This document shows positions 10,852 to 44,312 of a stretch of 64,000 nt of DNA, piece by piece. The stretch lies in NCBI GenBank assembly GCA_949751835.1, contig CATKHK010000073.1, positions 170,519-234,518 of the forward strand. Direction: 5' to 3'. The notes beneath the pieces are model-generated. The model did no database searches. It was not told where the DNA came from and saw only the letters and a program-made list of their open reading frames with translations. This DNA comes from Blepharisma japonicum. Its lineage: Eukaryota; Ciliophora; Heterotrichea; Heterotrichida; Blepharismidae. Position 1 is the first letter of the stretch, and each line of letters begins with the position of its first letter. Both the position numbers and the translations under genes were made by a program.

Positions 10852-11330
10852 TAAATTGTTTATAATAGAGAAATTAATAAAAATTGGCTATGTATTAGAA
10901 TTATTAAGCCAAAATTTATAATATATTAAATTCCAACATAAAAGAGAATTTTTTTTTAGACTTCATCAGGCAAAATCACTTGAACCTTAAATAATTTAAA
11001 GGCAAGGCGTAATCCGAGTTTAAAATAGCAATATCTCTATTTATAAATAAAAGCCCTGATTTTATCTTTTAAATATTCTAATACTATTTATATCTTTTAT
11101 AAAATTGTTTTATGCTTTAACCAAGAAATAATTTAAGAGAAAATCTCTAAAAAATAATTAAAATTTCGGTATTAAAAGCTATTAATCAGCAGCTAATTAA
11201 AAAAATCTCAGATTGAGTATTTTAATTTTGAATTTTTTAATAATATGATCAGATCTTACTAGTTTTCTCCATTTTTAAATTCATGATTACAAACAGATTA
11301 CAAAGATCTGATCCATCTATTATAAAAAAC
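10852..11330. other. Gene-free AT-rich interval
   Basis: About 480 bp with no supported coding frame. A less AT-rich patch lies at about 10960-11030 without recognisable RNA-gene signature. The right end holds an inverted repeat (separate entry) just upstream of the next gene. Confidence 0.5.
11247..11313. promoter_or_regulatory. Perfect 11-bp inverted repeat before secreted-protein gene
   Basis: GATCAGATCTT at 11247-11257 is exactly mirrored by AAGATCTGATC at 11303-11313. The spacer is 45 bp, and the right arm ends 17 bp before the chosen ATG at 11331. It could be a paired protein-binding site or a hairpin in the leader. Its function is inferred from position only. Confidence 0.4.
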
Positions 11331-11711
11331 ATGTCAAAAGTCTTATTTCTAATTGCATTAGGAGTCTTTGCAGTTTCTGTACAAGCAGGAATTGTCAAAG
11401 GTTATGGTGCAAATAAAGTATCAGGCTTTCAGAGCGCATATGAGCACAATGATAGGTGCGGATACAATAGCGGAGAAAGAGATGATAGAGATGAGCGTAA
11501 TGAATACGATGAGCATAATGAATACGATGAGCATAATGAATACGATGAGCATAATGAATGCAATGAAAGAGACGATTATAGATATGACCATGATGACAGA
11601 AGCCATGGATACGGAAATTACAGAGATGAATATGGAGATGAAAACAGATATGACCACGATGAAAGGGTTGTTAATTACAGATTTGAGAAAGATGATCATT
11701 ATTGCCATTAA
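11331..11711 (+). CDS. Secreted Asp/Glu/His/Tyr-rich repeat protein
   Basis: 126 residues from the ATG at 11331. This start is chosen over 11283 because it opens directly with a signal peptide (MSKVLFLIALGVFAVSVQAG). The mature part is extremely hydrophilic and rich in Asp, Glu, His, Tyr and Asn, with four YDEHNE-type hexapeptides and an ending of DDHYCH. It resembles no family I know. The composition suggests an acidic, possibly metal-binding extracellular or vesicle-content protein, which is inference only. The start near 11283 would put 16 extra residues before the signal peptide. Confidence 0.7.
   Translation: MSKVLFLIALGVFAVSVQAGIVKGYGANKVSGFQSAYEHNDRCGYNSGERDDRDERNEYDEHNEYDEHNEYDEHNECNERDDYRYDHDDRSHGYGNYRDEYGDENRYDHDERVVNYRFEKDDHYCH
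11490..11561 (+). repeat. Four tandem 18-bp units in the coding region
   Basis: Four consecutive units of the form GATGAGCATAATGAATAC begin at 11490, 11508, 11526 and 11544, encoding DE(R/H)NEY/C. The first (CGT) and last (TGC) differ slightly, so the array grew by 18-bp duplication. Confidence 0.9.
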
Positions 11712-13791: not shown

Positions 13792-16005
13792 TTAATTAGA
13801 CTCTATTTCAGCAGATTCTTGCTCTTTTGTAACAATTTGGTAAGCTTTAAGAGCAGCTTGTTGTTTTGCAAGCCATCTTGTTTTAGAGTAATGCGAAACT
13901 ATTGGGACTTCATCAATATAAACTGTTGCTAAGCATCCAAGTTCTGTATCACTTTCTTCAATCCTAATTTTTTTCCTTGATCTTTGCCCATATACAGATA
14001 ATCTTGACCTTATATTTGACTCACATTTTTCATTATTTCGAGCAAGATGAATCATTGGCAATTTCAAAATTGACCCAAAAACCTGACATACCACTCTTAA
14101 AGATCCTGAGTCAATTAATATAGCTCCAGCCAGGGCTTCAAAAATATCGTTAAGACATTTAGGAGGATCGTCATCATAAGCTCCAAAATTGCATATATCT
14201 TCATCCCAAGTTACTGTATCCAGAAATTTATTCACAATTTCTGCCTGGCATAAATCACACTTCAAAAACCTATGAAGCCCTAATGAAATTGACAACTTTG
14301 AAAGCACATTATTGTTAGCAATAATATGCTTAAAAGTAGTCAATTCTTCAGCATTAAAGTTTCCGAGCAAAAACGTATTAGAAACCACTATTAGATCTAG
14401 CAAAGAATCTCCTAAAAATTCAAGTCTTTCATAATTTGTTTTATTTTCTTGTGATGCATGGGTAAATGCTTCAAAAAGCAAAGACTTGTCTCTGAATTTG
14501 TACCCAATAATGCCTTCTACCATTTCTGGGGTCTCAAAAAGGTCCCCACAGGAGTGTTTTTCACTCATAGGAGGTATTATGTCACCAAAACTAGGATTTT
14601 CACATAAAATGTCAGAGCTCAGCATATTAATATCAAGGACTGTTAGTTTTTCATTATCAAAGTACTGAAGGGTGTAAGCCCAATTCTGCTCTTCTTCAGG
14701 CAAGACATCAAGCTGATATACGAATTTCGCTGAATTTAGCATGCCTTCTCCCATGAAAAAAGCGCCAATTGTTGATTCAACCATGTCAGCTAGCTGCCCA
14801 TCTGAAATTCGTTGAAGGACTTGATCTGTTTCGTCTTTGGCATTTTGGCCTTCATAGTATGGCGGTCTGAGCTTTATATATTTAAGCTCTCTTGTCCTCA
14901 AATAATTTTGAAACTCGTGGCGTTTAGCTATTTTACTGAGATAATCATTTTTTATTTTTTCTGTGCGTCTTCAGGTCAAATAATGTTCACGGTCTTTTTC
15001 ATATTTAGAGAAGAAGTGAAGGGAGGCTATAACTTTTAATATGACATCTCCTAAATTTTCAAGGGAGTCATAGTTGTTATCATTGTCTAGTGAAGGGGCT
15101 GTTAGGCCGTTTCTTAAGTAGGTAAAGGAACCAGTATAGTTATATAGTTTAGCGAACTCGATAATATAAGACACGCTTTCAAGAGAGCTTAGCATTACTA
15201 GAAGATGTGTCGCTTCTTCATATTGGGCATTACTTAAGTAAAAGATTTGCATTTCGTCTTCAGAAAGAATTTGGTAATTATTAGGAGTTTTTGTAGTTGT
15301 TGTAACAACTCTAAGCATTCTTCTTACAGGTTTAGCGTTTTTGACAATGATAAATGGTTTGCAGCTATCATTATTTCTTTTCTTATCAATCATAGCTTTT
15401 ACCAAAGTCCTCCTATCAGAAATCGTTTTATTTTCATTATTTACAATCACAGTTTGGGACTCAAAAATTTCATTTAAAATTTCTTCAGTTTCCTCATAAG
15501 GCATAATTGACTTAACATACTGTAAAAAATGCCTTTTCTTCACATTCTGAAACATATAATTCGGTCTATCATTTATAGAGATTTCTCTAATAGTTTTTAA
15601 GTCTACATCATACAGTGCATTTTTTACTATATCTCAATCAATTCTTTTTTTTTTAATAGGAACGACCAAGTAATTCGCATGAGAAAGCTTTCCATTCTTT
15701 ACTTGAGGCACCTGAAAAAGATCGCACCACATAACATGCTGAAACTCTCTCAAAGAGTTTAACTCGCTGCTCCACAGTTTTTGTTTCTTTATAAACTGAA
15801 TAAAATCAGGACATGGCTTAAATTCTACTGGGAACAGTATCCCAAACTGTGAAATTTCGAAAAATTTGTAAAAATACACTTCATATTTTGCACTTTTTAA
15901 AAGAAAAGGCTGGGATAAAATATCTGCATAGCTTCTTATATTATAAGCTTCAAATGCTTCAGTCTTCAGCTTTTTTGTGGGATCAGCATCAATTTCTATG
16001 TCCAT
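13792..16005 (-). CDS. Dicer-like double RNase III without helicase
   Basis: 737 residues, with TGA at 15634 and 14971 read as Trp; stop TAA. Residues about 1-310 resemble the Dicer platform/PAZ/connector region (YLVVPIKKKRIDWDIV at about 112-127). RNase IIIa has LENLGD (315-320) and ADMVE (406-410). RNase IIIb has YERLEFLGD (525-533) and NDIFEALAGA (619-628). The acidic metal ligands of both halves are therefore kept. Residues about 690-728 look like the second half of a dsRNA-binding domain. The start is fixed within 23 bp of the divergent gene, so no helicase is encoded. Ciliate Dicer-like enzymes of this shape make the small RNAs that guide DNA elimination; that role here is inferred. Confidence 0.9.
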
Positions 16006-16028
16006 TTTGGTGTGTTGTTATTATAATC

Positions 16029-16943
16029 ATGGAAAATTTAGACGAATTAGACAATCTAGCTGAAAAATATAAATCTGAAGGAAATTTTGTAGAGGCTTTA
16101 AATGTTGTAGAAGAAGGCTTAAATATTAGAAAAACTAGGTTTGGGGACGACAGTTTAGAAGTAAGGAAAAGCTATATCAAATTGTGTGAGCTTTGCAATA
16201 TTCTTGCAGCTTATTATCTCCAAAGAGATAATGCTGATTTAGCCTTTGATTTATTGAAAAGGGCTGAACTGTTGTGTGATATTGATGAGCATGCTAAAGC
16301 TGTGACTTATAACAACCTAGCCTGTTATTATAGAAAAACAGGAAAAGCAAGAGTAGCTTTAACGTATTTAGGAAAAGCTTTAGTAATTGATAATGATCAG
16401 CCAAATACCCATTTAAATTTATGTGCGTCTCTTTCACAGATTGATAGGCATGAAAAAGCATTAGGGCATGCAATGCAGGCTATTGTACTTTTGCAAGATC
16501 TTTTTATTAATTCTATACAAGCTAATACAGGCTTTGAAGAGCATGCCCATGAGCTTGCTATTGCTTATCACAATATGGCAGTAGAGCTTGAATACCTAAA
16601 AAGAACCAATGAAGCTTTAAGAATGTACCAAAAGGCGGTAGAATTTGCCCAGAAATATTTACCTGAAGACCACCCTATCAATGAAAATGCCCAAAGAGTG
16701 CTTCATAATGCTGCAAAAGATGAAGAAGAACATAGAGAAAAAATGCTGAATCGACGAGAATGCACATCAAAAAACCAATTTTATAGTAAAAAACTTGAGA
16801 GAAAAGCGTCAAGAAAAGAAATTGATGAAGACAAAAATGCAGAAATGAAAAGAAAAGCATCGTCAACTGATCCAGGAGTCAGGTTTGGGAAGGACTATGA
16901 AAGAGGAAATGAAGGCCGAAAACCTAATTTAATTGAAATATAA
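16029..16943 (+). CDS. TPR-repeat protein
   Basis: 304 residues from the ATG at 16029; stop TAA. Residues about 5-230 are a series of tetratricopeptide-like helix pairs (AEKYKSEGNFVEALNVVEEG, TYNNLACYYRKTGKARVALT, AYHNMAVELEYLKRTNEALR). The AHELAIAYHNMA and LPEDHP elements are like kinesin-light-chain-type TPRs. The last 70 residues are basic and disordered. TPRs mediate protein binding, and the partner is unknown. The gene starts 23 bp from the divergent Dicer-like start codon, and its stop is 24 bp before the helicase gene. Confidence 0.85.
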   Translation: MENLDELDNLAEKYKSEGNFVEALNVVEEGLNIRKTRFGDDSLEVRKSYIKLCELCNILAAYYLQRDNADLAFDLLKRAELLCDIDEHAKAVTYNNLACYYRKTGKARVALTYLGKALVIDNDQPNTHLNLCASLSQIDRHEKALGHAMQAIVLLQDLFINSIQANTGFEEHAHELAIAYHNMAVELEYLKRTNEALRMYQKAVEFAQKYLPEDHPINENAQRVLHNAAKDEEEHREKMLNRRECTSKNQFYSKKLERKASRKEIDEDKNAEMKRKASSTDPGVRFGKDYERGNEGRKPNLIEI

Positions 16944-25014: not shown

Positions 25015-26268
25015 ATGAATTGCTGGAAAAAAGATTGTGTAAAAGAATCCGTATATGTTTGCCAATGCACTGAACAAGGAACTAACTCGTGCGAATTTCA
25101 CTATCTTGAACATTTACAACTCAACAACCAGCAAAGCCATCTGGTTAAGCAAGTATTATTCAAACCAAAGCAAGCCACAAGGCATGCACTTTGTTCTTAT
25201 CTTAGAAAAAGGAATGCAGAGTTAAACATCTTTCAATCAAAAGTAATTAGTGAAATTTCTCAAAAAATTACGCAACTCAACACTCAATTAAAAACTGCAA
25301 TAGATGAAATCATAAGAGTGAAAAACGAAAATCTAGCCTTAATAGACAGACTTATACTGGCTGAAAACGTATCTCAAAATGATGATTGGGCAAAGCTTTT
25401 AAATTTAGAGCCTGATGTAGCAATTAAAAGCATTCAAGATAATATTTGTAGAATTGATATTCAAAAAATTCCTAAATATGTTGGATGCGAATTTGATATT
25501 TTTGACTATTCTATAAAGGGAAACGAAATTGATATATTTCGTGATAATTCAAAAAAGTTATTAAGAGTAAGTCTTAAAGATCTTAAAATTAATGAAGCTG
25601 AAATTGCAATAGTTCAAAATACTAATACTTATTTATCAATGTGTAAAATTCCAAATGGAAATCTTATTTGTATTGGAGGTTATCCTTATGCTTCAACAGC
25701 ATTTATTGTATATCCAGATAATAGTATTAAATATCTTGCTAGTTTATTAGAGCCAATCGGATTTGCAAGCGCTATTTATTATAAGAATGAAATTTATGTA
25801 TTTGGTGGTCAAAATAATAGTGGATACGTTATGATTCCTGAGAAATATAATATATCAGAAAATAATTGAAATCAGCTGCCTCGAATTAGTACTGGTGCAA
25901 ATTATTGCAATGGATTTGGTTATAAAAATAAGATTTTTTTTGCAGGCTATCAGCACTCAAATGTTTATATCTACGATATTCAGCAAAATTCTTACTCAGA
26001 AATTCCAATCGGATTATGTTCGAACGGTAAGGCTTTAATTTTAATCAGAAATATATTTTATGTGATCGTGTCTAGCTCCAATATATATGAAATTAACCTT
26101 AATAATACAAATAATTGGAAAGTTGTTGGAAGTTGTGAAGGATTGGCAAGTTTTCCAGTATCTCATTTTGTTGAATTTAGAACTTTTATTTACTGTTTTA
26201 ATCAAGAATCTAATATTTTCAAATTTGATTTAAATTCGAAATCAATCCAAAAAATCCAGAAAATATAA
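25015..26268 (+). CDS. Kelch-type protein, tandem copy 1
   Basis: 417 residues with TGA (25867-25869) as Trp; stop TAA. The N-terminus MNCWKKDC...CQC...SCEFHYLEH is a Cys/His cluster resembling a B-box. A short coiled coil follows (about 75-115, KITQLNTQLKTAIDEI), then a beta-propeller with kelch-like signatures (NLICIGGYPYAS, IYVFGGQNNSG, KIFFAGYQ). Ciliates have many such kelch family proteins, and their partners are unknown. No RING is present. Codon 4 is TGG here but TGA in the two downstream copies. Confidence 0.8.
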
Positions 26269-26581
26269 TTAAGAAAAAATAATTTTGTTAATTGGAAGAA
26301 TTTTATTTCATTATTAATTTGTCACTGCATAATTATTAATTTTATATAAATAAATGAGCTAAAGCAAGGTATTTTTATAATATTTCTAAAGAAAATATAT
26401 CTTAAGATATGTATTTAATTATAGTGGTTCTTGTAAATTTTATATTATTCATACAAGATTTTAAATTTATGTTTATTTTATTTTCAAGATATCAAAATAT
26501 AAATATAATAGAATTCTATAAATTAAATAATAAAATATGTTCTAATAGTTATTATTTTACCAAATAATTGCTTATATTATA
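26269..26581. other. Gene-free spacer in kelch cluster
   Basis: About 310 bp. It holds copies of cluster-flanking sequence: a block at about 26271-26340 recurs at about 29466-29530, and about 26425-26520 matches about 24852-24950 upstream of copy 1. These mark the ends of the duplicated unit. Confidence 0.7.
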
Positions 26582-27831
26582 ATGAATTGCTGAAAACAAG
26601 ATTGTGTAAAAGAACCAATATATGTGTGTCAATGTTCTGAACAAGGAATTTACTCATGCAAAACTCATTTAATTGACCATCTGCAACTTAAAATCCAACA
26701 TCATGTTAAGCCTCTATTATTCAATGCCAACCCAGATACAAAGAACGCACTGTGCTCTTATCTTAGAAAAAGGAATGTAGATTTAAGCATCTTTCAATCA
26801 AAAGTAATTAGTGAAATTTCTCAAAAAATAAAGAAACTCAACACTCAATTAAAAACTGCAATTGATGAGATTGCAAGAGTAAAAAACGAAAACCTTGTCT
26901 TAATAGATAGAATTATAAAGACTGGATGAGTGCATCAAAATGACGAATTTGAAAAGTTTTTTCTATTAGAGCCTGATGTAGCAATTAAAAGCATTCAAGA
27001 TAATATTTGTAGGATTGACACTCAAAAAATTCCTAAATATGTTGAATGCGAATTTGATATTTTTGACTATTCTATAAAGGGAAATGAAATTGATATTTTT
27101 CGTGATAATTCAAAAAAGTTATTAAGAGTAAGTCTAGAAAACCTTACAATTAAAGAAACTGAAATTGCAATAGATCAAAATACGAATACTTATTTATCAA
27201 TTTGTAAAATTTCAAATGGCAATCTTATTTGTATTGGAGGTTATCCTTATGCTTCAACAGTATTTATGATATATCCAGATAATAGTATTAAATATCTTGC
27301 TAGTTTATTAGAGCCAATCGCATATGCAAGCGCTATTTATTATAAGAATGAAATTTATGAATTTGGTGGTTCTAATAATAGCGGATACGTTATGATTCCT
27401 GAGAAATATAATATATCAGAAAATAAATGAAAGCAGCTACCTCGAATTAATGAAGGCGCAAATTGCTGTACTGGATTTGGTTATAAAAATAAAATATTTT
27501 TTGCAGGAAACCAACACTCAAATGTTTATATTTACGACATTCAGCAAAATTCTTACTCAGAAATCCCAATTGGGTTAAGTATAACGAATGGGAAGGTTTT
27601 AATTTTAATCAGAAATCAGTTTTATGTTATAGGTCTTGCTCCGAAGTATATGAAATTGACCTTAATAATACAAATAATTGAAAAGTTGTAGGAAGGTGTG
27701 AGCCATTGGAGTGTCGTCCAGTATCTCATATTGTTTGGTTTAAAACTTTTATTTATTTTTTTGATCAGCAATCATATATTTATCAATTTGATATAGATTC
27801 AAAATCAGCCAAAAAATTGAAGAAAATATAA
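26582..27831 (+). pseudogene. Kelch-type copy 2, frameshifted near the 3' end
   Basis: This copy keeps the start MNC(TGA)KQDC and good identity to copies 1 and 3. However, between 27621 and 27640 one base is missing relative to both neighbours (TATGTTATAGG against TATGTGATCGTG). The frame then ends at a TAG at 27689-27691, about 369 codons. Downstream of the lesion the original frame stays open to the TAA at 27829-27831, so the damage is recent or a sequencing error. No 15- or 16-nt intron would repair it. The truncated product would lose the last propeller blade. Confidence 0.75.
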
Positions 27832-28207
27832 TATTAAGAAATAGAGTTCGCTTATTAGAAAAATTTATTTTCTTAATTAATTTATTAGCTACATAATTGC
27901 TGCCTTTTATATAATAAATGAACTAAAACAAGGAATTTATAAAATTTCATAGCCCTTGAAGAAAAATATATCATTTTAAATATGCTAAGAATTAAACCAA
28001 TATAAGTTGAAAATTTAATTCCTATTTTCCAATTTCTATAAAATTAAGTAAGAAATTTCAAAGATATAAATAAAATTAAAAATATGAGCATTAGCTAGGC
28101 TTTATTTGATGCTATGAATATTTTATTAACATAATATAATTTTAGAATATAATTTGTAGAAACTCCAATAGTTATTATTTACCAAAAATTTGTTTATAAA
28201 TATTAAA
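27832..28207. other. Spacer with remnant of a neighbouring gene
   Basis: About 375 bp, AT-rich. At about 28070-28131 it contains a near-copy of the 3' end of the convergent gene found at 29759 (see repeat entry). Otherwise I see no coding frame. Confidence 0.6.
28094..28131 (-). repeat. Duplicated 3' end of the 29759 gene
   Basis: GCTAGGCTTTATTTGATGCT at about 28095 recurs at about 29757. On the minus strand both encode FIASNKA and a TAG. This is a fragment of the convergent gene carried along when the kelch unit was duplicated. Confidence 0.75.
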
Positions 28208-29464
28208 ATGAATTGCTGAAAGCAAGGTTGTGTAGAAGAATGCATGTACTTTTGCCAATGTTCTGAAGCGGGAATTTATTCATGTGAAACTCATTATAAT
28301 TGTCATCTTCAGCTTAACATTCAACACAAGCATACGGTTCAACTTCTAATATTTGAGCCAAAACAAGATACAAAGCAAGTACTTTGTTCTTATCTTAGAA
28401 GAAGGAATGAAGAGTTAAATATCTTTCAATCAAAATTTATTAGTAAAATTTATCAAAAAATCAAAAAACTCAACACTCAATTAAAAACTGCAATTGATGA
28501 AATTTCAAGAGTAAAAAACGCAAACCTAGCCTTAATAGAGAGGATTATGCAGACTGAAAGAGTACATCAAAATGATGTTTTTGAAAAGTTTTTTATTTTA
28601 GAGCCTGATATAGCAATTAAAAGCATTCAAGATAATATTTTTAGAATTGATATTCAAAAAATTCCTAAATATATTGAATGCGAATTTGATATTTTTGACT
28701 ATTCAATAAAGGGAAATGAAATTAATATTTTTCGTAAGAATTCAAAAATGTTATTAAGAGTAAGTCTGGTAGACCTTACACTTAAAGAAACTGAAATTGC
28801 AATAGATCAAAATACCAATACTTCATTATCAATTTGTAAAATTCCAAATGGCAATCTTATTTGTATTGGAGGTTATCCTTATGCTTCAACAGTATTTATG
28901 ATATATCCAGATAATAGTATTAAATATCTTGCTAGTTTATTAGAACCAATCACATGAGCAAGCGCTATTTATTATAAGAATGAAGTTTATGCATTTGGTG
29001 GTCGAAATAATAGTGGATTCGTTATAACTCCTGAGAAATATAATATATCAGAAAATAAATGAAATCAGCTGCCTCGAATTAGTACTGGTGCAAATTATTG
29101 CAATGGATTTGGTTATAAAAATAAGATTTTTTTTGTAGGCCATCAACACTCAAATGTTTATATCTACGATATTCAGCAAAATTCTTATTCAGAAATTCCA
29201 ATTGGATTAGATTCGCAAAACGGTAAGGCTTTAATTTTAATGAGAAATATATTTTATGTGATTGTGTCTAGTTCCAATATATATGAAATTGACCTTAATA
29301 ATACAAATCATTGGAAAGTTATTGGGAGTTGTGAAGGATTGGGAAATTTTCCAGTATCTCATTTTGTTGAATTTAGCACTTTTATTTACTGTTTTAATCA
29401 AGAATCTAATATTTTCAAATTTGATTTAAATTCGAAATCAGTCCAAAAAATCCAGAAAATATAA
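28208..29464 (+). CDS. Kelch-type protein, tandem copy 3
   Basis: 418 residues with TGA as Trp at 28217, 28955 and 29060; stop TAA. It has the same architecture as copy 1: an N-terminal Cys/His cluster (MNC-Trp-KQGC ... CQC ... CETHYNCH), a short coiled coil, and a kelch-like propeller (CIGGYPYAS, AFGGRNNSG). The C-terminal 130 residues are closer to copy 1 than to copy 2, and the 3' flanks of copies 1 and 3 also match. This suggests that copy 1 and copy 3 are ends of the same duplication history, or exchanged sequence. Confidence 0.8.
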
Positions 29465-30535: not shown

Positions 30536-31065
30536 GATTAACGAATTTTAAATTTAAAAAGAAATTAGTTATTTCATAAATATTTAAAAACTAATTAATT
30601 AGTATATATGCAAGATTTTCATTTGGGCTAAGATTTCAGTATTTCTTTTGCAATAATTTTGATAATTAATATTGAGAAATTCAAAAATGTATAATATTTC
30701 TATGCTATCATATTTTATTATCAGAAAATTCTTTGTTATAATTTCATTTAAAACACTTTTGCTAGTTATCAATATATGAATTGGCTTATATTTTAAGCCA
30801 AACAATCTATCCCTTCAAATTATATTAAATTTTAGTCTATAATAAAGAATTAATCATATCTAATAAAAAAATCCTTTGAATTTAGCAAATTTTCCTCTGA
30901 TACTAATATATATCCCCTTTTCAGCTCATCACTATTCTTTCTCCATTAAAAATTATTCCCATACTTAATTGCCAATATATCAGAAAACGTCTCATCCTCC
31001 ATCTTTTAATTCCATCCAACGCAATAAACAGATAGGTACGATATTCTCATAACAGGATAATTAAT
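30536..31065. other. Gene-free AT-rich interval
   Basis: About 530 bp upstream of the first collagen-like gene. A short AT-driven open frame on the minus strand (30599-30805) has no coding features. No RNA gene or repeat is visible. Confidence 0.5.
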
Positions 31066-31617
31066 ATGGTCAAACTGGCAATTCTGATGATTTTAGCTCT
31101 AACTGCCCTTGCATTTAGACCCAATTTCAAAAGCTCGTTTATAGAAGGAGATCAGTCAAGCTGCGAACAGAAGCAGGAAGAGCAGCCATGCGCAGAAGAA
31201 GCAAAACCAGAAGAGCAAAAGTGCCAAGAAGAAGCAAAACCAGAAGAACAAAAATGCCAAGAAGAGCAGCAGGTTAAAATTGTATATCAAAAAGGAGATA
31301 AAGGAGATGTAGGAGAACAAGGATGCCAAGGACCACAAGGCCCACCTGGCCCACAAGGACCTCAAGGGTGCAAAGGAGAAAAGGGGGAAAAAGGAGAAAA
31401 AGGTGATAAAGGAGACCAAGGAGAGCAAGGATGCAAAGGAGAAAAAGGAGAAGCAGGAGAAGCAGGACCATGTGGACTTCAAGGGTGCAAAGGTGAAAAA
31501 GGAGATCGTGGAGATAGAGGACCAGCAGGGGTCATTATTCGATGCCAAGAAATCGATGAAGTTGTAGAGCAGTGCAAGTGTCAAGAAAAAGACGACAAGG
31601 CTGCATCAAAATGGTAA
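31066..31617 (+). CDS. Secreted collagen-like protein 1
   Basis: 183 residues, ATG to TAA. A signal peptide ([17 protein letters not shown]) is followed by a Glu/Gln/Cys-rich segment containing a doubled [11 protein letters not shown] unit. An uninterrupted block of about 27 Gly-X-Y triplets follows (residues about 82-162), rich in GEK, GDK and GPQ. Cys appears inside triplets (GCQ, GCK, GPC), and a Cys-rich tail follows (QCKCQE). Uninterrupted Gly-X-Y means a collagen triple helix, and the intra-helix cysteines suggest disulfide cross-linking. It is the first of three tandem paralogues. Collagen-like secreted proteins are uncommon in ciliates. An extracellular or cyst-wall role is inferred. 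Confidence 0.88.
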
Positions 31618-32018
31618 GCCAAAGGTAATACATAACTTATTCTTACTGACATCCTGTGTTATTTATTAATAATACTGAAAATATAGCTATATATAAATTT
31701 AATAATACTATCAAAAAACTCGATTTTTCTTAAAAATGTCATTATACAAATACACAAAATTTTTACTAATTTTTGAAAATATAAAATTATAGTCTTTATA
31801 TTTATCAATTTTTTTAAATTTCCTTTAAGATTTAATATTCTATCGACATACAATTTAAATAATAAATGATACTATTTTACTAACCTATCAGATCTTTAAA
31901 AAAATAATTTAGTTTCAATTGACTATTTTTCGCAAAATATTCTGTGATATTTATTTTTCATTTTTTTACTATTTGCAAGCTTATTAACCTCAATAAAATA
32001 ATGGTTATATAAATTTAA
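31618..32018. other. Spacer between collagen-like genes 1 and 2
   Basis: About 400 bp, very AT-rich, with no coding frame supported. Its right end (about 31958-31990) contains the element shared with the spacer before gene 3. Confidence 0.5.
31961..31991 (+). promoter_or_regulatory. Shared upstream element, collagen-like gene 2
   Basis: TTTTTTTACTATTTGCAAGC followed by TTATTAACC, about 30-55 bp before the ATG at 32019. It matches the element at 32822-32850 before gene 3. Confidence 0.45.
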
Positions 32019-32480
32019 ATGGTACGAGTTGCAATTCTGATAGCGCTCTCTGTAGCTGTTTTAGCTGTTAAGCCTGGCTTATTGCAACAGGAATCAGTTG
32101 TGGTTGCTGGAAGTGGATCCTGCCCATCTGTACAAACACAAACTGTAGATTTCGACGAATGTGTGGTAACCAGACAGGGATGTCCTGGACCACAAGGATG
32201 CCAAGGACCACCAGGATGTCCAGGACCTCAAGGACCTAAAGGGCCTCAAGGATGTCCAGGACCAAAAGGACCTAAAGGACCAAAAGGAGACACAGGAGAC
32301 GAAGGCCCACAGGGATGCCCAGGACCACAAGGATGCCCAGGACCAAAAGGACCACAAGGATGTCCAGGCCCACAAGGTCCTCCTGGAGAAAAAGGTTGCA
32401 CAGGTCCAAGAGGATGCAGCGTTAAAATCATTGAATATGATGACGACGAGTGTGGATGCGAAGAAGCTATAGTGCACTAA
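32019..32480 (+). CDS. Secreted collagen-like protein 2
   Basis: 153 residues, ATG to TAA. The signal peptide [17 protein letters not shown] is followed by a 35-residue linker and exactly 27 consecutive Gly-X-Y triplets, mostly GPQ, GPK and GCP. About a third of the triplets are GC-y, so Cys is spaced regularly along the predicted triple helix. The tail holds acidic residues and a CGC pair (DDDECGCEE). The signal peptide and the AVKP(G/N)L(L/I)QQ junction are nearly identical to gene 3, so these two are the closest pair. Confidence 0.9.
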
Positions 32481-32876
32481 TAACGGGTAAGATTAAATAA
32501 TTATTTTTAAAAAATATTCCTATCAGTTAAAAAAATGTAAAAAGGGATGGAGATAATCAAAAATAAATAAAATTTAATAAAAAGATTAATTTAATAAAGA
32601 AAATTGTATAAAATCATAGTCTAAAGAAAAGATAAAGTTAATAAGACCAATATTTCAGCTATTTTTAATTTTTTTAAATATTCATATGATTATTTATCTT
32701 TTCTACCATAAATATTTATGCTTACTCATACTTTTTCAATACAGTTATAAGAAACCAAGCTATTCTTTTTACCATAAAAAATATTTAATATAAACTACTT
32801 TCTGGTAGGGTTGTTTTACCATTTTTTTCACCATTTGCAAGCATATAACCACCAATGATAAGTCTAATATAAACAA
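32481..32876. other. Spacer between collagen-like genes 2 and 3
   Basis: About 395 bp, AT-rich and without a supported frame. It contains the shared upstream element at 32822-32850. Confidence 0.5.
32822..32850 (+). promoter_or_regulatory. Shared upstream element, collagen-like gene 3
   Basis: TTTTTTTCACCATTTGCAAG followed by CATATAACC, about 27-55 bp before the ATG at 32877. ATTTGCAAGC and AACC are conserved with the element before gene 2, while the surrounding AT-rich sequence is not. Confidence 0.45.
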
Positions 32877-33329
32877 ATGGCAAAGCTAACAATTCTGATT
32901 GCTCTCTTCGTTGCTGCATTAGCTGTTAAACCAAACTTAATCCAACAGGAAGAAACATCTGTATGTGGATGCGACTGTGATGAAATTTATGATCAACCTG
33001 TTAATATTAGAGGAACCATCAAACTAGTTCAGGGTGCACAAGGATGCCAAGGACCTGCTGGTCCATGTGGACCACAAGGCCCTCCAGGTCCACCAGGCCC
33101 ACAAGGAGATCAAGGATGCCCAGGACCTCAAGGAGACCAAGGAGATGAAGGATGCCAAGGACCAAAAGGGCCATGCGGCCCTCAAGGCCCACAAGGACCT
33201 AAAGGAGAAACTGGATGCCCAGGAGTTCAAGGTCCAAAAGGATGTACTGGCCCAAGAGGTGATAGAGGATGCCCAGGAGTTGTTGTTAATGCATGCAAAT
33301 ACTGTGAATGCGATGAAAACGCTGAGTAA
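32877..33329 (+). CDS. Secreted collagen-like protein 3
   Basis: 150 residues, ATG to TAA. The signal peptide is [17 protein letters not shown], followed by a Cys cluster (CGCDCDE) and about 28 uninterrupted Gly-X-Y triplets (GAQ GCQ GPA ... GCP GVV). The tail is [11 protein letters not shown]. The triplet count equals that of genes 1 and 2 to within one although the triplet content differs, which points to selection on helix length. Cysteines before, inside and after the helix suggest a cross-linked trimer or network. Confidence 0.9.
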
Positions 33330-33567: not shown

Positions 33568-34590
33568 CTAATTGTTTAGCGCTTCTTCATACCTATCTCT
33601 ATCACAAAACTCTGGAAACTTGCATCTACAAGGCCCTCTTCTAATTTTTCTAAAAGTAAGAGAAATTCTCCTTTTCCTATGGACCATATTCCCATTGACA
33701 ATATCATGCCTTCTCTGCTGTATTGAGTGTTTCCACACATATCTTGCCTCATCAGTCATTGCCAGCATTGATCTTGGTGGTATAAACTGATTAAATTCCC
33801 TCCCATCTACATGTCGAAAACACATACTTATAGGCCCAAGTATGCTGATACAAGCTAAAACTTCTTCAAATGGCGAATGGCTGTCTATATGGGGAGGAAT
33901 ACTGTCTCCTGGCTGATAATCATTTACTGTAAGCTGGTCATAAAGAATTCCAAATTTCAGTTGTAAATCAGCTAAAAGAGGATTTATTCAGTCAGGAAAG
34001 CCAGAAGACGGGGTTTCTTGGTTTATAGAGTTAGCTCCATATATAAAATCAAACCCAAAATGCTGGACTCTTCTATTGGTTAGAGGATTCCAAGGCAATC
34101 TGTCAAGTTCTGTTACTAAAAGCTGCTCATATTCAGAAGAAATAAAGTCTTTTTCTATGATTAAGCCAGGGACTGGAACACTTTCATAGCATATAGAGTC
34201 CTTCCCAAGCTGTAAATTGTGTAATTGGATTGGGGTATATAAGACTGTAAAAGGATGAGGTTTTGGGGAAAATGGTAAAATTGGGTAGGAATTGTTGATG
34301 GTTTCATATGCTTTGACTGCAGATTCTAAAGACTCATAAGAAGCGTAGCCATAATTAATCCCAGAAAGGATAATTAATGAAGATAAAGACCCATACTGTA
34401 AAAGATGAGACCTAAGTATATGATAATCATCTTCAGAGCCTTCAGAGTAATGCAAAATAAATAATCCACAAGATGGGCTTTCCTCTAAAAGCTCTTCTAA
34501 TTTTTCATCTCTTTTTATAAGCTCAATCCCTTTAATTTTTTTCTTTTTCAAGCCTTTCAGATACACCTTCATTCGCTTATCCTCACTCAT
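33568..34590 (-). CDS. ALKBH8-like Fe(II)/2-oxoglutarate dioxygenase without methyltransferase
   Basis: 340 residues with TGA (33988-33990) as Trp; stop TAG. Residues about 40-120 resemble an RRM (CGLFILHYSEG, GYASYESLESAVKAYETIN). The AlkB core follows: NDYQPGDSIPPHIDSHSPF with iron ligands H234 and D236, the LPPRSM-like IPPRSMLAMTDEARYVWKHS with the third ligand H288, and RRISLTFRKIR for 2-oxoglutarate. RRM plus AlkB is the ALKBH8 order; animal ALKBH8 adds a tRNA methyltransferase, absent here. The family hydroxylates a modified wobble uridine in tRNA. Its start codon is 11 bp from the divergent giant gene. Confidence 0.88.
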
Positions 34591-34601
34591 TGTAAATTAA
34601 T

Positions 34602-37600
34602 ATGAAATTATTACTAATCTACCTTTTCTTTTTCACTACCCAAATTTGGGGGTTTTATAGTGTATCTGTTACTCCAAGCTCAAAGGCAATTAACGCTAAA
34701 AACAATTATCAAGTACAATTATTCTTAACAAGCTCTTTTACAAATGTCCCTTCAGGATTTACATGTGTCATGGTATTGCCTAGTGCTTTTTCTGTTGTGG
34801 ATTCGGTAGGTGCTAACCCTACTTCATGTTTTTTACAAGATATGCTTGGGGTAAACGCAAATACTTATTTAACAACTACTTATAGCTCTTCTAACCCTCA
34901 GCCTGGACAATGCGGGGTTTCGGCAACAAATACTTATACATTTATAACTCCATCTCAGCAGTCCTCAGGACTTAAATTTACAATTGGACTGATAAAAAAC
35001 CCATTAGCGTCTTTAACTCAGGCTAATACTGGGTCTATACAATTTTCAGGCTATAATCCTGGAAGTTCAACAGTAAATTATTCAATTACTTATTCATTTG
35101 CAAATAATTATTTTACATCTGGAAGCTTGTCTCTTTCATCATTTTCCCAATCAGTTGCAACAGTTGGGTCATGGTCGAATTTTATATTTATATTTACAGC
35201 TAATGATAGTATCCCGAAAAATGGGAAGATTCAATTTACTTTTTCATCTGATTTTGGGCTTGCTGATGCATCAAGCACACAAGTAAGTGGATATGTGAAC
35301 TCAAATTCTGCGACATCGTTGACTCCAACTATATCAGGAATGGTTTTAAGTGCAACTGGTCTATTTACTTCCGCTTTAACAGTTACAGCTGGAGTTACTA
35401 AATTTACTATTGAAATTGACCAAGTAAGAAATTTAAGATATGTCGGGACTGCTTCAATTGTAATTGCTACAACTACTAGTAATGCTGAAATTATAGATAA
35501 AGTGACTACCAATCAAGGCCCTACGGACCCTTGCACGCTTCCTATGAATTTGTTATATCCATCTGTATCTACTGTGCTCTTATCGACTACTATAGTATTG
35601 TTTTTTACTGATTCTATTTTTGATGATACTCTGGATAATTCTTTTTCTATAGAGGTAGACTTTCCTGCAACTTTTACGATTCCAACATCTATAGAATGCA
35701 ACCCACTGATCGGGATCAGTGATGCTTCAATGACCTGCTCAGTTAATTCTAACAGTATTTCTACGACTACAACAATTACTGCTTTTCAGACTACTGTAGG
35801 ATTTAATTTAAAGTTTCCTATTAATCCTCCGAATACAAAAACTACTGATTATTTTCAAATATCAACATATAAAAGCACAGGAGAACTTATATGCCAAAAC
35901 ACACAGTTTTCTACATATACAGCTACTGTTAATGCTATCACTGTTTCTACTAGCTCTAGAGGTAGCAATCTAGTCGGCGAGCCTTGTATCTACACCCTTA
36001 CCTTCAAAACTTCTACCCAAATCCCATCAGGCGGAAAAATAAAAATCATTCTCCCAATGGACCAAGTTCTCGAAAACACAGGGATTGTCTGCTATCCTCT
36101 TGTAAACGGGGTCAAATCCTCCACAAATCAATGCACAAAGTCATCAACCTCCTCTACTTATGTTCTCACCTTAACAGAGTGATGTTCAGCTTATGATTCT
36201 TCCTGTAGTTCCTGCTGCAGTGCCTCTACAACGCTAACTGTCTACATCCAAGGTGTTCAAAACCCTCTTTTCTATAACCCAAGCGTATCCTCTAGTGTCT
36301 CAATTTATACAGCGAATTCAGATTTTTCTGGATATATAGATCAAATTACTTCAGGAGTCCAATTTACCCCAAGCTTAATAGCAAGGACTATTACAGATGC
36401 AGCTGCTATAAGGACTACTGACACTGTAGGGCTTTATAGCACATTCCAATTTACTTATACACCGACAATAAATTATGTAGCAAACTCAGTTATTGTATAT
36501 AGTTTTCCTAGTGATGTGGCTTATTTTGCAGATGATAGTGTAGCTCCTCAGTGCTCAAATACAGGGACTGCATATGGGAATATTAATACACCAAGCTGCA
36601 CATATACGACAAATGGGGATGGGTCATATGCAACGATCACTATTAGTGGGATGTGCCCTTCTGGCTGCACATCAGGGCAGAAATTAGCCATTTCTATGGG
36701 ACATTTACAAAACCCAAATACTGTTGCACCTTTAAATACTGGCTACAGTGTCAGTGTATACACCAGTAATAGCTATATAATTGAGCAAGGAAGTGCTGGA
36801 TCATCAGGGGTAAATTCATTAGTTACTAATACAATAACAAGTATCAGCGCAACAAGGTCTACAAATAATATTAAATCAAGCTACTCTATGACTATTTCTT
36901 TTGTGCATGCTACTTATTTATCCACGACAGGGAAAATTGATATTTCGCTGCCTATAAATATGGTGACTATAAAATCAAGCTTAGCTGTTTATAGGAAAAG
37001 TGACAGCTCTTCAGTATCATTTACGTCAACTATAGATTCAGCAACCAATAGTGTGACTCATATTACAATTACCAATTATTGTTCTACAGCTTGTGCTAAA
37101 GCAGGGACTATACAGATTTTGTTAGGAGGCATTAAAAATTTGAATTATGTTCAGACAATCACTGGGACAATGAGCATTACGACGTCAGATAACAGCTATA
37201 ATAGTGATATTGGGACTGTTAGCGATGTTTCTACTATATTAAGCCCACTTGTGCCTGGAAGTTTAAGTAATATTGAAATACACCCTATGGATCCAACTGT
37301 TTCGGCTAGCACAATTTATAGGATTATTTTTACGACTGGAAGTGATGTGCCAAGCTTGGCTTATTTTACTGTCACTTTTCCGACCGGAATTTCTCTATCT
37401 ATAAGCTCATGCACCGCTTATATAAACTTAGATAGTGGGCTGAGCTGTAGTGCTTCAGGCAGCAAATTGACCTTGTCATCAGGAGTGCCAGCTACTTTAA
37501 CAGGACCAATTATGATAGGCTTCCTTGTCAGTACCATTACAAATGGACCATCTGCAACCTCATATGGGACCTTTACAATATCTAGCTGAGACCCTGCAGG

Positions 37601-40600
37601 ATTTATCATAGACACTGACTCCACCGCCACTGTAACTTTTTATTCTGCTTTGCCCTCTTCAAGCTGCTCTACAAGCTGCAACCATTGTTCAGGTACTTCC
37701 AGCAACTGTGATACTTGTGCCAACCCTTCATCTACCCCTATAATCCAAGGCTATACCTGTATATCTTCCTGTCCTTCTGGGTATTATTTAGTATCCAGCA
37801 CTGATCTTACTTGTATTAAATGCTATTTCACATGTGGCACTTGCAAAGGCCCACAGTCTACTGACTGCTTATCCTGTGCTTCTACATATTTTATGTCTGA
37901 TTCTAGCTGTATTGATGCTTGTCCATCAGGGACTACAAATAATAATGGAGTCTGTACAAATAATAGTCCTTGTACATCTCCCTGCTTAACTTGTAGTACC
38001 TCTTTGACTTATTGTTTGACATGTGACAAGACCTCATCATACCCTGTGCTGGATTCTAAGACAGGGACTTGTGTAAATGAAGAGACGGCTACGAGCGATT
38101 ATTGTAGTGCAGGATATTATGAAGATAGTAATAAAGTCTGCCAAATTTGTAATATCAATTGTTTAGAATGCTATTCAGCTGCTAGCTATTGCAGCTCATG
38201 TCCTAGTATTTATGGGGATAAATATTTAAATTTGCTAACCAATGTATGCGTTGCTACTTGTCCTGCACTAATAACAGTGCCTGATTCAAGCGATTTTAAA
38301 TGTTATCCATGTGATAGCTCTTGTGCGACTTGTAATGGAAAAAATGCGAATAATTGTTTGACTTGTCCGAGTACAGGAACAATTTATTTTACTAGCGATA
38401 ATAAATGCTTGTCAAGCTGTACCCCTGAGTATAACTTTTATAATACGACATCAGTAAGATATGAGTGTATAAGTACTTGCCCAACTAACCATTATTATAT
38501 AACTACAGATTTAACAAGCTGTTTACCTTGTGATAGCACATGTTTAACTTGCAATGGATCAACTAATAATAATTGTTTAAGCTGCGATATGACCGGTACA
38601 TATCCTTATAAGACTCCTGACAATAAATGCGTGACTACTTGTCCTTCTAACTTATATAAAAATACCCTTGGTACAGAAATGCTTTGTGTCACAGATTGTG
38701 GGCCTACTTATATAAATTTCGAAGATTCGCAAGGAGTATTAATGTGCATAAGCACTTGCCCTGTAAATCATTATTATATTACAAATAATTTCTGCAAACC
38801 ATGCGACAGCACATGCTTAACCTGCAGCGGATCTGCCAATAATAACTGTCTCACCTGTAATACCACAGGAACTTACCCATATTTTACTGCAGATAGCCAA
38901 TGTGTAACTGACTGTCCTTCCAATCTCTACAAAAACACCCTTAACTCCCAAATGCTATGCGTCACTAAGTGTGGGCCTACCTATTTAAATTTCGATTTGT
39001 CAGCCTCGGCCAAAGTCTGCATTTCTTCATGCCCCACTACTCTTTATTATATAGATTCTGCCAACTATTACTGCAGACCCTGTGACCAAACTTGTTTAAC
39101 ATGCTCTGCATCCGCCAATAATAACTGCCTCACCTGCAATACTACAGGAACTTACCCATATTTTACTGCAGACAGCCAATGTGTAACTGATTGTCCTTCA
39201 ACTCTCTATAAAAATACCTTTAACTCCCAAATGTTATGCGTTACCAACTGTGGGCCTACCTATTTAAATTTCGATTTATCAGCTTCCTCCAAAGTCTGCA
39301 TCTCTTCTTGCCCTACAACCCTTTATTATATAGATTCTGCCAACTATTACTGCAGACCCTGTGATCAAACATGTTTAACATGCTCTGCATCTGCCAATAA
39401 TAACTGTCTCACCTGTAATACCACAGGAACTTACCCATATTTTACTGCAGATAGCCAATGTGTAACTGACTGTCCTTCCAATCTCTACAAAAACACCCTT
39501 AACTCCCAAATGCTATGCGTCACTAACTGTGGGCCTACCTATTTAAATTTCGATTTATCAGCCTCAGCCAAAGTCTGCATCTCTTCTTGCCCCACTACCC
39601 TTTACTATATAGATTCTGCCAACTATTACTGCAGACCCTGTGACCAAACCTGTTTAACATGTTCTGCATCCGCCAATAATAACTGTCTCACTTGCAATAC
39701 CACAGGAACTTACCCATATTTTACTGTAGACAACCAATGTGTGGCTGATTGTCCTTCAAATCTCTACAAAAATACAATAGGGACAAATATGCTATGCGTC
39801 ACCAACTGTGGGCCAACTTATTTAAATTTTGACATCTCTGCAACCGCAAAAGAATGTATTGTAACCTGCCCAAGTACTCATTACTATGTGGATTCTGCTA
39901 ATTATTATTGTAGAGCATGCGATTCTACCTGTTTGACGTGCAATGGCACAGATGCTAGTAGCTGCTTAAGCTGCGACACAACAGGTACCTATCCTTATTA
40001 TACAGTAAATAATCAATGTGTGACTGCTTGTCCATCTACTTTATACAAGTATACTTTTAACTCAGAAATGCTATGTGTAACAGACTGTGGGCCAACTTAT
40101 TTGAATTTCGACGTCTCAGCGACAGCAAAGGAGTGTATTGATACTTGTCCATCGACTCATTATTATGTTGATACTGCAAATGACTATTGTCGGCCATGTG
40201 ATAGTACTTGTTTAACTTGTAGTGGATCTTCAAGCACAAATTGTTCAACTTGCGATACCTCTGGGACGTATCCTTATCTAACTCCTTATAATGAATGTCT
40301 AAATGACTGTCCTTCTACGCTCTATAAATATACTTTTAACTCTAAAATGTTATGCGTCCTTAACTGTGGGCCTACTTATTTGAATTTTGATGCTTCGGCT
40401 ACCTCAAAAACATGCATAAGCACTTGTCCATCAACTCATTATTATATAGACAGTGCTAACTACTATTGTAGGGCATGCAATGAGACTTGCTTGACTTGTA
40501 GCGGATCTAATGACGATAATTGTTTAACATGTGACACAAGCAGCTTATACCCATATTTTACTGTTTATAACCAATGTATGTCGGACTGTCCTTCGAATTT

Positions 40601-43600
40601 ATATAAATATGAATTTTTATCAAAAATGCTATGTGTGCTAAACTGTGGCCCAGACTATTATAATTATGACATTTCTCCCACATCAAAAAAATGTGTAAGC
40701 CAATGCCCTTCTACTACCTATTTAGACTCTGCAAATTACTATTGTAGACCTTGTGATACAACATGCTTAACTTGTAGCGCAGGGGCAAATAATAACTGTT
40801 TAACCTGTGACACAGCTGGACAATACCCATATTTTACTTCTGATAATAAATGTGTGTCTGACTGTCCTTCAAATCTATATAAATATGAATTTAACTCTAA
40901 ATGACTCTGCGTCGCAGACTGCGGGCCGACTTATTTAAATTTTGATATATCTGCGACATCAAAAAAATGCATAAGTACTTGTCCAACTCAGCATTATTTT
41001 GTGGACACTCCGAATAACTATTGTAGACCATGTGATGATACTTGCTTAACGTGCAATGGGACAGCTAATAGTAATTGTTTAAGCTGTAATCAGACTAGTA
41101 ATGATCCTTATTTTACTGTTGATAGTTATTGTGTGAATGACTGTCCTTCAAATTTGTATAAGTATGAGTTTAATTCAGAGATGCTATGCGTGGTGAACTG
41201 TGGTCCGAGCTATTATAATTATGATAGCTCAGCAACAACAAAAGTGTGCTTAAGTAAATGTCCTGATGGGACATATTTGGATGCTCCAAATTATTACTGT
41301 CGGCCATGTGATAGTTCTTGTGCGACTTGTAATGGAAAAAATGCGAATAATTGTTTGACTTGTCCGAGTACAGGAACGATTTATTTTACCAGTGATAATA
41401 GATGTTTGTCAAGCTGCACCCCTGAGTATAACTTTTATAATACGACATCAGTAAGATATGAGTGTATAAGTACTTGCCCAACTAACCATTATTATATATC
41501 TACAGATTTAACAAGCTGTTTACCTTGTGATAGCACATGTTTGACTTGCAGTGGGTCCGCTAATAATAATTGTTTAAGCTGCGATATGACCGGCACATAT
41601 CCTTATAAGACTCCTGATAGTTATTGTGTGACTACTTGTCCTTCTAACTTATATAAAAATACCCTTAGCACAGAAATGCTTTGTGTCACAGACTGCGGGC
41701 CTACTTATATAAACTTCGAAGACTTACAAGGACTAAAGCAGTGCATCAACTCCTGTCCTGTAAATCATTATTATATGACAAATAATTTCTGCAAACCATG
41801 CGACAGCACATGTTTAACTTGCAATGGATCTTCTGACACTAACTGTCTTACTTGCAATATAACTAGTACATACCCATATTTTACTTCAAATAATCAATGT
41901 GTAACTGACTGTCCTTCAACTCTCTACAAAAATACCATAAATTCCGCAATGCAATGTCTCACTGACTGCAGGCCAACTTATTTAAATTTTGAGACTACAC
42001 CAAAACAATGCATAACCACTTGTCCGACCACTAATTATTATGTTGATAATGGCTCCTGTCTATCCTGTGATATTACTTGTTTAACCTGTAATGGGAATGC
42101 TAATAATAACTGTTTAAGCTGCAATATGACGAGCACCTATCCTTATAAAACTCCAGATAGCACCTGCCTTACTGACTGTCCTTCTACTTTATATAAAAAT
42201 ACTCTTGGGACAGAAATGCTATGTGTTACCAATTGTGGGCCGACTTATTTAAATTATGACAGTTCTGCTACCACAAAAGTGTGTGTAACTACATGTCCAG
42301 CTGGGACCTATAAGGACGCTCCAAATTATTATTGCCGACCATGCGATGCTACTTGTTTAACTTGTAGTGGGTCTACTTCAAGTGACTGCTTAAGCTGTCC
42401 TACTACAGGGCCTATATATTTTAACAACAATCAGTGTGTTTCTAATTGTACTCCTGAGTATAACTTTTATAATAAAACATCAGTAAGGTATGAGTGCATA
42501 AGTGACTGTCCTACTAATAATTATTATATAGATACAAGTTTATCGAGCTGCTTGCCTTGTTATAGCTCATGTTTAACTTGTACTGGAGCTGCTTATAATA
42601 ATTGTACAAGCTGCAGCACAAGTGGTAGCTATCCTTATAGGACACCTGATAACCAATGTGTGGGTACCTGTCCTTCGCCTTTATATAAGAATCCTTTTGG
42701 GACTGAAAAGCTATGTGTTACTGACTGCAACCCGACTTATTTGAATTTTGAAGACTCCCAAGGACAAAAAGAATGCGTCACCACATGTCCTACTACTCAT
42801 TATTATGCTGATACTGGTTTTTGTAGAGCATGTGATGGGACATGCTTAACGTGCAATGGTACAGCTTATGATAACTGTTTAAGCTGTGATACAGCTGGAT
42901 CATATCCTTTTAAGACCCCAGATAATCAATGTGTGGCTAGCTGCCCTTCAACATTATATCAAAATACTTTTAACTCAAAAAAACTATGTGTAGCAGATTG
43001 TAGGTCATCTTATATAAATTTTGAAGATTCAGATGGCTCTAAAGAATGCATTAGCACTTGTCCAAGCGAATATTACTATTTAAGTAATGGCTTTTGCAAG
43101 CCCTGCTATAAAACCTGTTTAACTTGTAGTGGCTCCTCTTACAGTAGCTGTTTAACCTGCAATGTATCTGCATCTTACCCTTACTTTACCCCCACAAATG
43201 AATGTGTTTCAAAATGCTCATCTTCTCTCTACGCAAACTCTTTAGACCCTACCTGGCTTTGCATGACTGATTGTAGGCCTACCTATATAAATTTTGAGAC
43301 TTCCCCCAAAGTATGCTCAGCCTCTTGTCCTGAGACTCATTATTATACTGACAATGGCTATTGTGAATCATGCAACGAGACCTGCTTATCTTGTAGTGGA
43401 GCCAATGACACCCAATGCACATCCTGCAATTTAACTAGTGAATACCCCTATTTTACTGCATTTAACCAATGTGTGGCTGACTGTCCTTCAACGTTATTTA
43501 AATATGAATTTAATTCAGAAATGTTATGCGTAACAAACTGTGGTCCTGAGTATATAAATTACAATAGTTCTCTCACATCAAAAACCTGTATAAGTTCTTG

Positions 43601-44312
43601 TCCTTCTGGATACCATGTAGATTTATTAACTTATTATTGTGTGTCTTCTGAAGTTACTCATGAAATGGTATATGCTGTGTATGGCTTAATAGCAGAATGC
43701 TTAATAGGCATTTCTCTTATAATCGCAGCAAGACTGAAAAAGCCTGATGTTTATTCTACCAAAGCGAATATTTTATCAATATTAAGTATTGTTGAATCTA
43801 CTGAAAAAATTTCGCTTTTTGTTTATCTTTGAATAGAAAATGGACCACAGGCTGGACTTTTTGTGTCTGTTAGTTCTGCATTTATAGGAGGATCAATTGC
43901 GGTAAGCATGATGTTTTTGACGCTGCATTTTGACCCACTGGTAGAAAGCAGCGCTACGCTGACTGATTTATCAAAATCAAATAAAATTTCATTTTTCCTT
44001 GTTAGGAACTTAACAATGCCTTTTGGGATACATTTTATTAGGATTTTATATAGCGGGTTTTTTGGATTTTCTATTACAACAGTACCGAAATCGATTGGGA
44101 GTGTAAGCGCTTTTAGGTATCCTTTAGAAAAATTATGTATCATGAATTTTATGATTATTAGTGTGCCGAGGCTTATAGAGTATGCAGGGATTTTAGCACT
44201 TTATAGCATCCAGACAAATTCATGGCAGATTGCATTGTTTGGAATTTGCTTAAATTTTTATATGTCAGTATATTTTATAGTGGATTGGTGGAGAAGTCCT
44301 TGGAGGAGCTAA
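34602..44312 (+). CDS. Giant cysteine-rich repeat surface protein with C-terminal membrane segments
   Basis: 3,236 residues in one frame with TGA as Trp at 36180, 37587, 40902 and 43830; stop TAA. The signal peptide is MKLLLIYLFFFTTQIWG. Residues about 20-1015 are Ser/Thr-rich and beta-like. Residues about 1020-3010 are a long run of furin-like Cys repeats of the type PCDxTCLTCxGxxxNNCLxC. Over much of their length these repeat every 93 residues, with alternating CxxCGPTYLNF and ISxCPxTxYY blocks. The last 200 residues hold four to six hydrophobic segments, so the protein is anchored by its end with a very large outer part. Ciliates have many such proteins; the ligand is unknown. No kinase or channel domain is visible. 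Confidence 0.9.
38310..41817 (+). repeat. Internal 0.5-kb duplication in the giant gene
   Basis: About 38310-38820 recurs at 41307-41817 with a constant offset of 2,997 bp (999 codons) and few substitutions, for example the blocks beginning TGTGATAG(C/T)TCTTGTGCGAC. This is a recent copy or gene conversion. Confidence 0.85.
38800..40760 (+). repeat. 279-bp tandem Cys modules in the giant gene
   Basis: The start of the CDxTCLTC block falls at 39081, 39360, 39639, 39918, 40197 and 40476, exactly 279 bp apart each time, and then at 40752 (276). The first three to four units are almost identical at the DNA level. Confidence 0.9.

Follow-up and report, generated by a model that had tools for sequence, protein, structure and literature searches.

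Three tandem genes for predicted secreted mini-collagens with cysteine inside the triplets, and their family in the ciliate Blepharisma japonicum

The locus and its three tandem genes

What might a ciliate build from three adjacent genes, each of which encodes a leader, a short uninterrupted run of Gly-X-Y triplets and cysteines placed within the triplets themselves? The genes lie in a 64,000-nucleotide stretch of Blepharisma japonicum DNA, here called the window (contig C73:170519-234518 of an assembly of 45.2 Mb and 224 contigs). TGA encodes Trp in this DNA: under table 4 the longest ORF in the window grows from 1003 to 3236 aa, and in the kinase-like ORF of locus L017 a TGA stands, by eye, at the Trp of the DIWS motif. 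A TGA = Trp code has also been reported for Blepharisma stoltei (PMC9942806). The three genes are:

31066..31617, + strand: mini-collagen 1 (class I, Lys/Glu-rich), intact ORF of 183 aa, PF01391 match
32019..32480, + strand: mini-collagen 2 (class II, Pro/Cys-rich), intact ORF of 153 aa, PF01391 match
32877..33329, + strand: mini-collagen 3 (class II), intact ORF of 150 aa, PF01391 match

The original prediction of a tandem trio with signal peptides, Cys-rich linkers, about 27 perfect triplets and Cys tails holds up well. All three ORFs are intact, and each has a leader by hydropathy (12-residue maximum of 2.9-3.2 at the N-terminus versus at most 1.4 elsewhere), a linker of 36-60 residues with 2-4 Cys (computed with the leader set at 16 residues), a helix of 27, 27 and 28 perfect triplets (including the final GVI, GCS and GVV), and a tail of 14-26 residues with 3, 2 and 3 Cys. 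In mini-collagen 1 the leader and the Cys-containing linker are followed by triplets at residues 77-157 and a CKC in the tail; the triplets of mini-collagen 2 span residues 54-134, and those of mini-collagen 3 residues 53-136, ahead of a CKYCEC tail. The Cys within triplets number 5 (4 at X, 1 at Y), 9 (all at X) and 8 (6 at X, 2 at Y), respectively. Collagen (PF01391) is the sole Pfam domain in these proteins, at 55-64 bits against a cut-off of 27.2. Helix length was said to have been held constant while the triplets diverged; its near-constancy is real, and the identity between the trio helices at X and Y positions is 26-28%.

Adjoining the trio are a 2OG-Fe(II) oxygenase (33568-34590, - strand) that matches PF13532, an AlkB-type family, and an ORF of 3236 aa (34602-44312) with a leader-like start and with furin-like and growth-factor-receptor Cys-rich matches (11 and 2 stretches), which is possibly a surface protein. 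Elsewhere in the window lie three related tandem ORFs beginning MNCWK (25015-29464), one of which (28208-29464) has Kelch repeats, and tandem ORFs at 58469-59662, 59883-61058 and 62120-63295, all with CPICD near the start and the last two closely alike.

Members of the family in the genome

A genome-wide count of collagen-like genes had been proposed as a check, and it places the trio in a larger family. Using PF01391, at least 15 matches were found, at least 14 of them above the cut-off (both counts being lower bounds), and at least 13 of these are intact genes of a family of predicted secreted mini-collagens, distributed as follows:

Window: 3 genes
C64: 5 genes (a pair and a second trio)
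C25: 2 genes (C25a and C25b)
C8, C62 and C81: 1 gene each

The helix is exactly 27 triplets long in 10 of the 13; the remaining three have 28, 29 and 20. All 13 match PF01391 at E <= 0.01 and have Collagen as their only Pfam domain; all have a leader-like N-terminus and, again by hydropathy, none has a strongly hydrophobic stretch beyond it. Both trios, in the window and on C64, have CxC in all six tails, and so does C8, whose tail is long, Ser/Asn-rich and holds 10 of its 11 N-glycosylation sequons; the tails of C25a and C25b are Ser/Gln-rich. The C62 gene, with 20 triplets, no Cys in the helix and a tail unlike the others, falls outside both of the classes described below.

Two further PF01391 matches were dropped as non-collagens: one on C30, with VEG repeats in a long protein that also has MORN-like repeats (named by eye), and one on C69, with SGV repeats. 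Leader and C-flank queries, which could have found helix-less members, led to 5 and 8 places in the genome, every one a known member; they missed 8 and 5 of the 13 known members, so divergent relatives could escape and the completeness of the family is unproven.

Selection and block duplication

Each gene of the trio has a paralogue in the second trio, at locus L010 on C64:

L010:3976-4485: C64c1, paralogue of mini-collagen 1, helix dN/dS 0.19
L010:4935-5396: C64c2, paralogue of mini-collagen 2, helix dN/dS 0.11, 9 of 9 in-helix Cys kept
L010:5891-6352: C64c3, paralogue of mini-collagen 3, helix dN/dS 0.14 (one partner triplet omitted)

The trio helices are under purifying selection. The ratios are simple Nei-Gojobori values between paralogues of one genome only, and the synonymous divergence of the trio pairs is 0.37-0.88. 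Three other family pairs gave helix dN/dS of 0.13-0.23, and the three most distant pairs tested gave 0.40, 0.63 and 0.80, so that purifying selection is demonstrated for the close pairs alone. A chance or frame artefact is ruled out by this selection on close pairs together with the 13 intact paralogues.

The window genes and their C64 counterparts stand in identical order, and the same holds for further paired ORFs that flank the trio on both sides. The duplicated block covers 9114-48267 of the window and C64:60000-85499, with protein identities between paralogues of, for example, 92% (ORF 9114-10379) and 69% (ORF 15954-16943). Because the flanking ORFs were duplicated too, the shared order of the trio is by itself no evidence of joint function. 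The other two C64 genes (L009 5711-6265 and 6802-7329) match codon for codon in helix and C-flank, yet 6 of their 18 leader residues are different; gene conversion between them is likely.

Two classes and their upstream elements

Two classes of helix can be told apart by composition. Class I (mini-collagen 1, C64c1, C25a, C25b, C8 and C81) has 7-9 acid-base triplets and 6-8 Pro at X, and class II (mini-collagens 2 and 3, the C64 pair, C64c2 and C64c3) has 0-1 and 14-18. The following elements lie upstream of the window genes:

30999..31005, + strand: CCATCTT motif, 67 nt ahead of the ATG of mini-collagen 1
31963..31984, + strand: class II upstream element, 56 nt ahead of the ATG of mini-collagen 2, 2 mismatches to the pattern
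32825..32846, + strand: class II upstream element, 52 nt ahead of the ATG of mini-collagen 3, 0 mismatches to the pattern

CCATYTT is found 64-69 nt ahead of the ATG in all six class I genes; two class II genes have it as well, at distances of 58 and 50 nt. It occurs within 110 nt upstream in 8 of the 13 family members versus 1 of 37 other listed window genes, with an expectation of 0.024 per shuffled sequence. That single non-family gene is a small leader-bearing His/Asp-rich ORF with no Pfam match (11283-11711, start taken at 11328). As a whole, the class I upstream regions resemble one another no more than shuffles do (0.476, below the maximum of 0.502 in 15 shuffles); CCATYTT alone stands out. 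The class II upstream regions have an identity of 0.668 versus a shuffle maximum of 0.473, and their element lies 52-56 nt ahead of the ATG in all six genes. With at most one mismatch, 5 of 5 sites genome-wide precede family members, and with at most two there are 14 sites, 6 of them ahead of family members, compared with 4 for the reversed pattern, a test that is partly circular since the pattern was derived from family genes.

Cysteine inside the helix

Across the family's 347 triplets, Cys occupies 73 of 694 X/Y positions, 61 of them X and 12 Y. Viral collagen stretches that match the family profile served as a yardstick (the best 80 of 371 matches, 79 of them scorable, with at least 15 triplets and Gly at X excluded); those 79 contain one Cys in 7054 X/Y positions. 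Cys inside the triplets had been described as regularly placed and as unusual for collagen. The second description fits its near-absence from the viral stretches, but one Clostridia metagenome-assembled genome (MAG) has denser Cys at X; as to the first, the Cys are dense but not evenly spaced, with a preference for X and one invariant site. This site, an X-position Cys 18 triplets ahead of the last triplet, is present in all 12 long members; no other Cys column is fully conserved (the runner-up is at 7 of 12). Its permutation value of 3e-5 was obtained with 8 representatives that are related to one another, and so it speaks of conservation rather than of independent events, with a contribution from shared ancestry.

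The X-position side chains of a collagen triple helix point outward. With few Cys at Y, an X-Y bridge within one rod would seldom be possible, and the excess of X over Y would therefore favour bridges from rod to rod above those inside one. Disulfide-linked trimers or sheets, as in the original prediction, may form.

Helix stability and prolyl hydroxylation

Axial pairs were counted from a Lys at Y to the acid at the next X, with a one-residue stagger between chains. A gene 1 homotrimer has 30 such Lys-acid pairs versus 15.7 +/- 2.9 in triplet shuffles, which supports homotrimers for this gene. Gene 2 has 4 (1.9 +/- 1.5 in shuffles) and gene 3 has 2 (1.6 +/- 1.4), values so few and so near the shuffles that the stability of class II is left unexplained by charge. 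Pro stands at Y in 39 of the 347 family triplets, and 16 of the 347 are GPP.

The suggested check for a prolyl hydroxylase, carried out with profile searches read exon by exon, had a mixed outcome: a single PF13640 gene, on C39, was found, whose ORF start has by eye no leader-like stretch, and no secretory hydroxylase was detected, with limited controls. PF13661 gave no match in the genome, its positive controls giving a signal in 2 of 14 genomes; PF08336 gave none either, but no control gave a signal, so the domain may have been missed, and the same lack of a control signal goes with the null result for PF01755 (Glyco_transf_25). Bacterial collagens are triple-helical although they lack hydroxyproline (PMC8968730), so its absence would not preclude a helix.

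Proposed function

The probable role, judged from the sequences, is that of hydroxyproline-independent rods held together by disulfide cross-links in a secreted layer. Each chain would enter the ER, shed its leader and fold as one strand of a triple helix; at the collagen rise of 0.286 nm per residue, 27 triplets of 3 residues give a length of about 23 nm. Hydroxyproline could be dispensable for stability in class I helices thanks to Pro at X combined with Gln or Lys at Y and to the axial pairs of Lys with Glu or Asp, and in class II helices thanks to Pro and Cys. The terminal Cys would lock the chains to one another; the outward X-position Cys, including the invariant one, would join adjacent rods in a lattice, which oxidation would harden, and the near-fixed rod length would set a uniform lattice spacing. 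The product is most likely a secreted structural layer. Within this reading a cyst wall is the leading candidate for its site, somewhat short of a majority, with a surface coat and granule content sharing the rest about equally.

A more far-reaching version, which we put forward tentatively, is that this is an independently evolved ciliate mini-collagen armour -- a single-cell counterpart of the nematocyst wall -- in which two rod classes of near-fixed length, one salt-bridge-stabilised and the other Pro/Cys-rich, might form a hydroxyproline-free disulfide lattice through the invariant Cys.

It is rather unlikely that the proteins are instead packed in cortical extrusomes of the pigment type and oxidised on discharge, like the minicollagens of the nematocyst wall: they are small, Cys-rich, leader-bearing and encoded by a multigene family, and PMC12811490 counts the pigment granules of heterotrichs among the extrusomes, but in none of the 13 does a [KR]R site lie between leader and helix, and "collagen" is not a word of the main text of that paper. 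Soluble oligomers, in which Cys-locked trimers would form the stalk region of a protein secreted for recognition or adhesion and no lattice would exist, have a still smaller chance. The stalks of collectins and Scl proteins are rods with terminal Cys, which the family resembles, and the sequon-bearing tail of C8 and the Ser/Gln-rich tails of C25a and C25b would suit such proteins; yet no known globular head accompanies the Collagen domain in any of the 13, and the tails of the window trio are short. We give about the same low weight to the idea that the trio encodes the chains of a single obligate heterotrimer and is held together for that reason. The order is repeated in the C64 block, the helix lengths are nearly equal, and the best of the six possible 1:2:3 orders has 10 axial pairs versus 6.5 +/- 1.3 in shuffles treated alike; against this, gene 1 has a different upstream element from genes 2 and 3, duplication of the block is enough to account for the order, and the 10 pairs fall far under the 30 of the gene 1 homotrimer, so that charge pairing supports an obligate heterotrimer weakly. 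That the family consists of unexpressed relics of a low-complexity expansion is highly improbable, with 13 of 13 ORFs intact and helix dN/dS far under 1 in the trio despite its synonymous divergence.

Layers built of collagen are usually regarded as typical of animals, while bacteria and viruses have look-alikes. A ciliate family whose rods are of near-fixed length and carry a conserved Cys in the helix, with no secretory prolyl hydroxylase detected, would be an independent solution; it would make it possible to test how Cys within a triple helix cross-links collagen rods, and would name actual proteins as candidates for the wall, coat or granule matrix of a heterotrich.

Comparison with known systems

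As anticipated, the literature matches listed (open-licence papers) include no comparable ciliate system that has been characterised. "Collagen" is absent from the main texts of the Blepharisma stoltei genome paper (PMC9942806), the two encystment papers and the protrichocyst paper (PMC12811490). Among unicellular eukaryotes, Gly-X-Y repeats are described from Monosiga, Salpingoeca and Dictyostelium (PMC5395295).

A viral origin was considered and rejected: the best 80 of 371 matches are nearly free of Cys and align, for the most part, with the helix alone, and the 12 loci of a second viral search, with gene 2, contain one in-triplet Cys in total. The 56 PDB sequences found with the family profile are by name mostly collagens and designed peptides, their best stretches lying chiefly within the helix.

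Among prokaryotes, gene 2 found 8 loci, of which L111, L112, L114 and L117 have Cys within triplets, although some peptide patterns of the query contain Cys and bias it accordingly. The densest are two collagen-like ORFs of the Clostridia MAG, L111 1-807 and L112 1459-1782 (the latter cut by the contig end), with GCP, GCT and GCA triplets; Cys stands at X in 16 of 45 triplets of L111 and 9 of 25 of L112. At its end L111 has a BclA_C head, which none of the 13 ciliate members has; BclA_C (PF18573) gave 0 matches in the genome, though no control gave a signal, and by eye the flanks of L111 and L112 bear no resemblance to those of the family. The bacterial Scl1/Scl2 and Lcl proteins, which are the best NCBIfam matches of the window trio (all under the cut-offs), share with it many charged helix triplets and a likely independence of hydroxyproline. 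The ciliate family differs from them in having Cys within the helix and in being without a known head domain, and an LPXTG anchor is absent in 13 of 13.

The cnidarian minicollagens are like the ciliate proteins in having a signal peptide, a short collagen domain, Cys-bearing ends and a possible disulfide network; in the ciliate family the leader-like start is found in all 13 members and the helix has 20-29 triplets. The cnidarian helix is shorter, at about 12-16 triplets. In the canonical minicollagen layout the helix is flanked by proline runs and CXXXCXXXCXXXCXXXCC domains (PMC4195985). That pattern, which belongs to groups 1 and 2, is absent in 13 of 13 ciliate members in strict or loosened form, as is a PPP run; the Cys-rich domains of group 3 are variable (PMC4195985), so the missing pattern does not by itself exclude a minicollagen of group 3. 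The ciliate family also has Cys within its triplets, in which it differs from the cnidarian proteins, and, by analogy with them, it may work like a minicollagen network.
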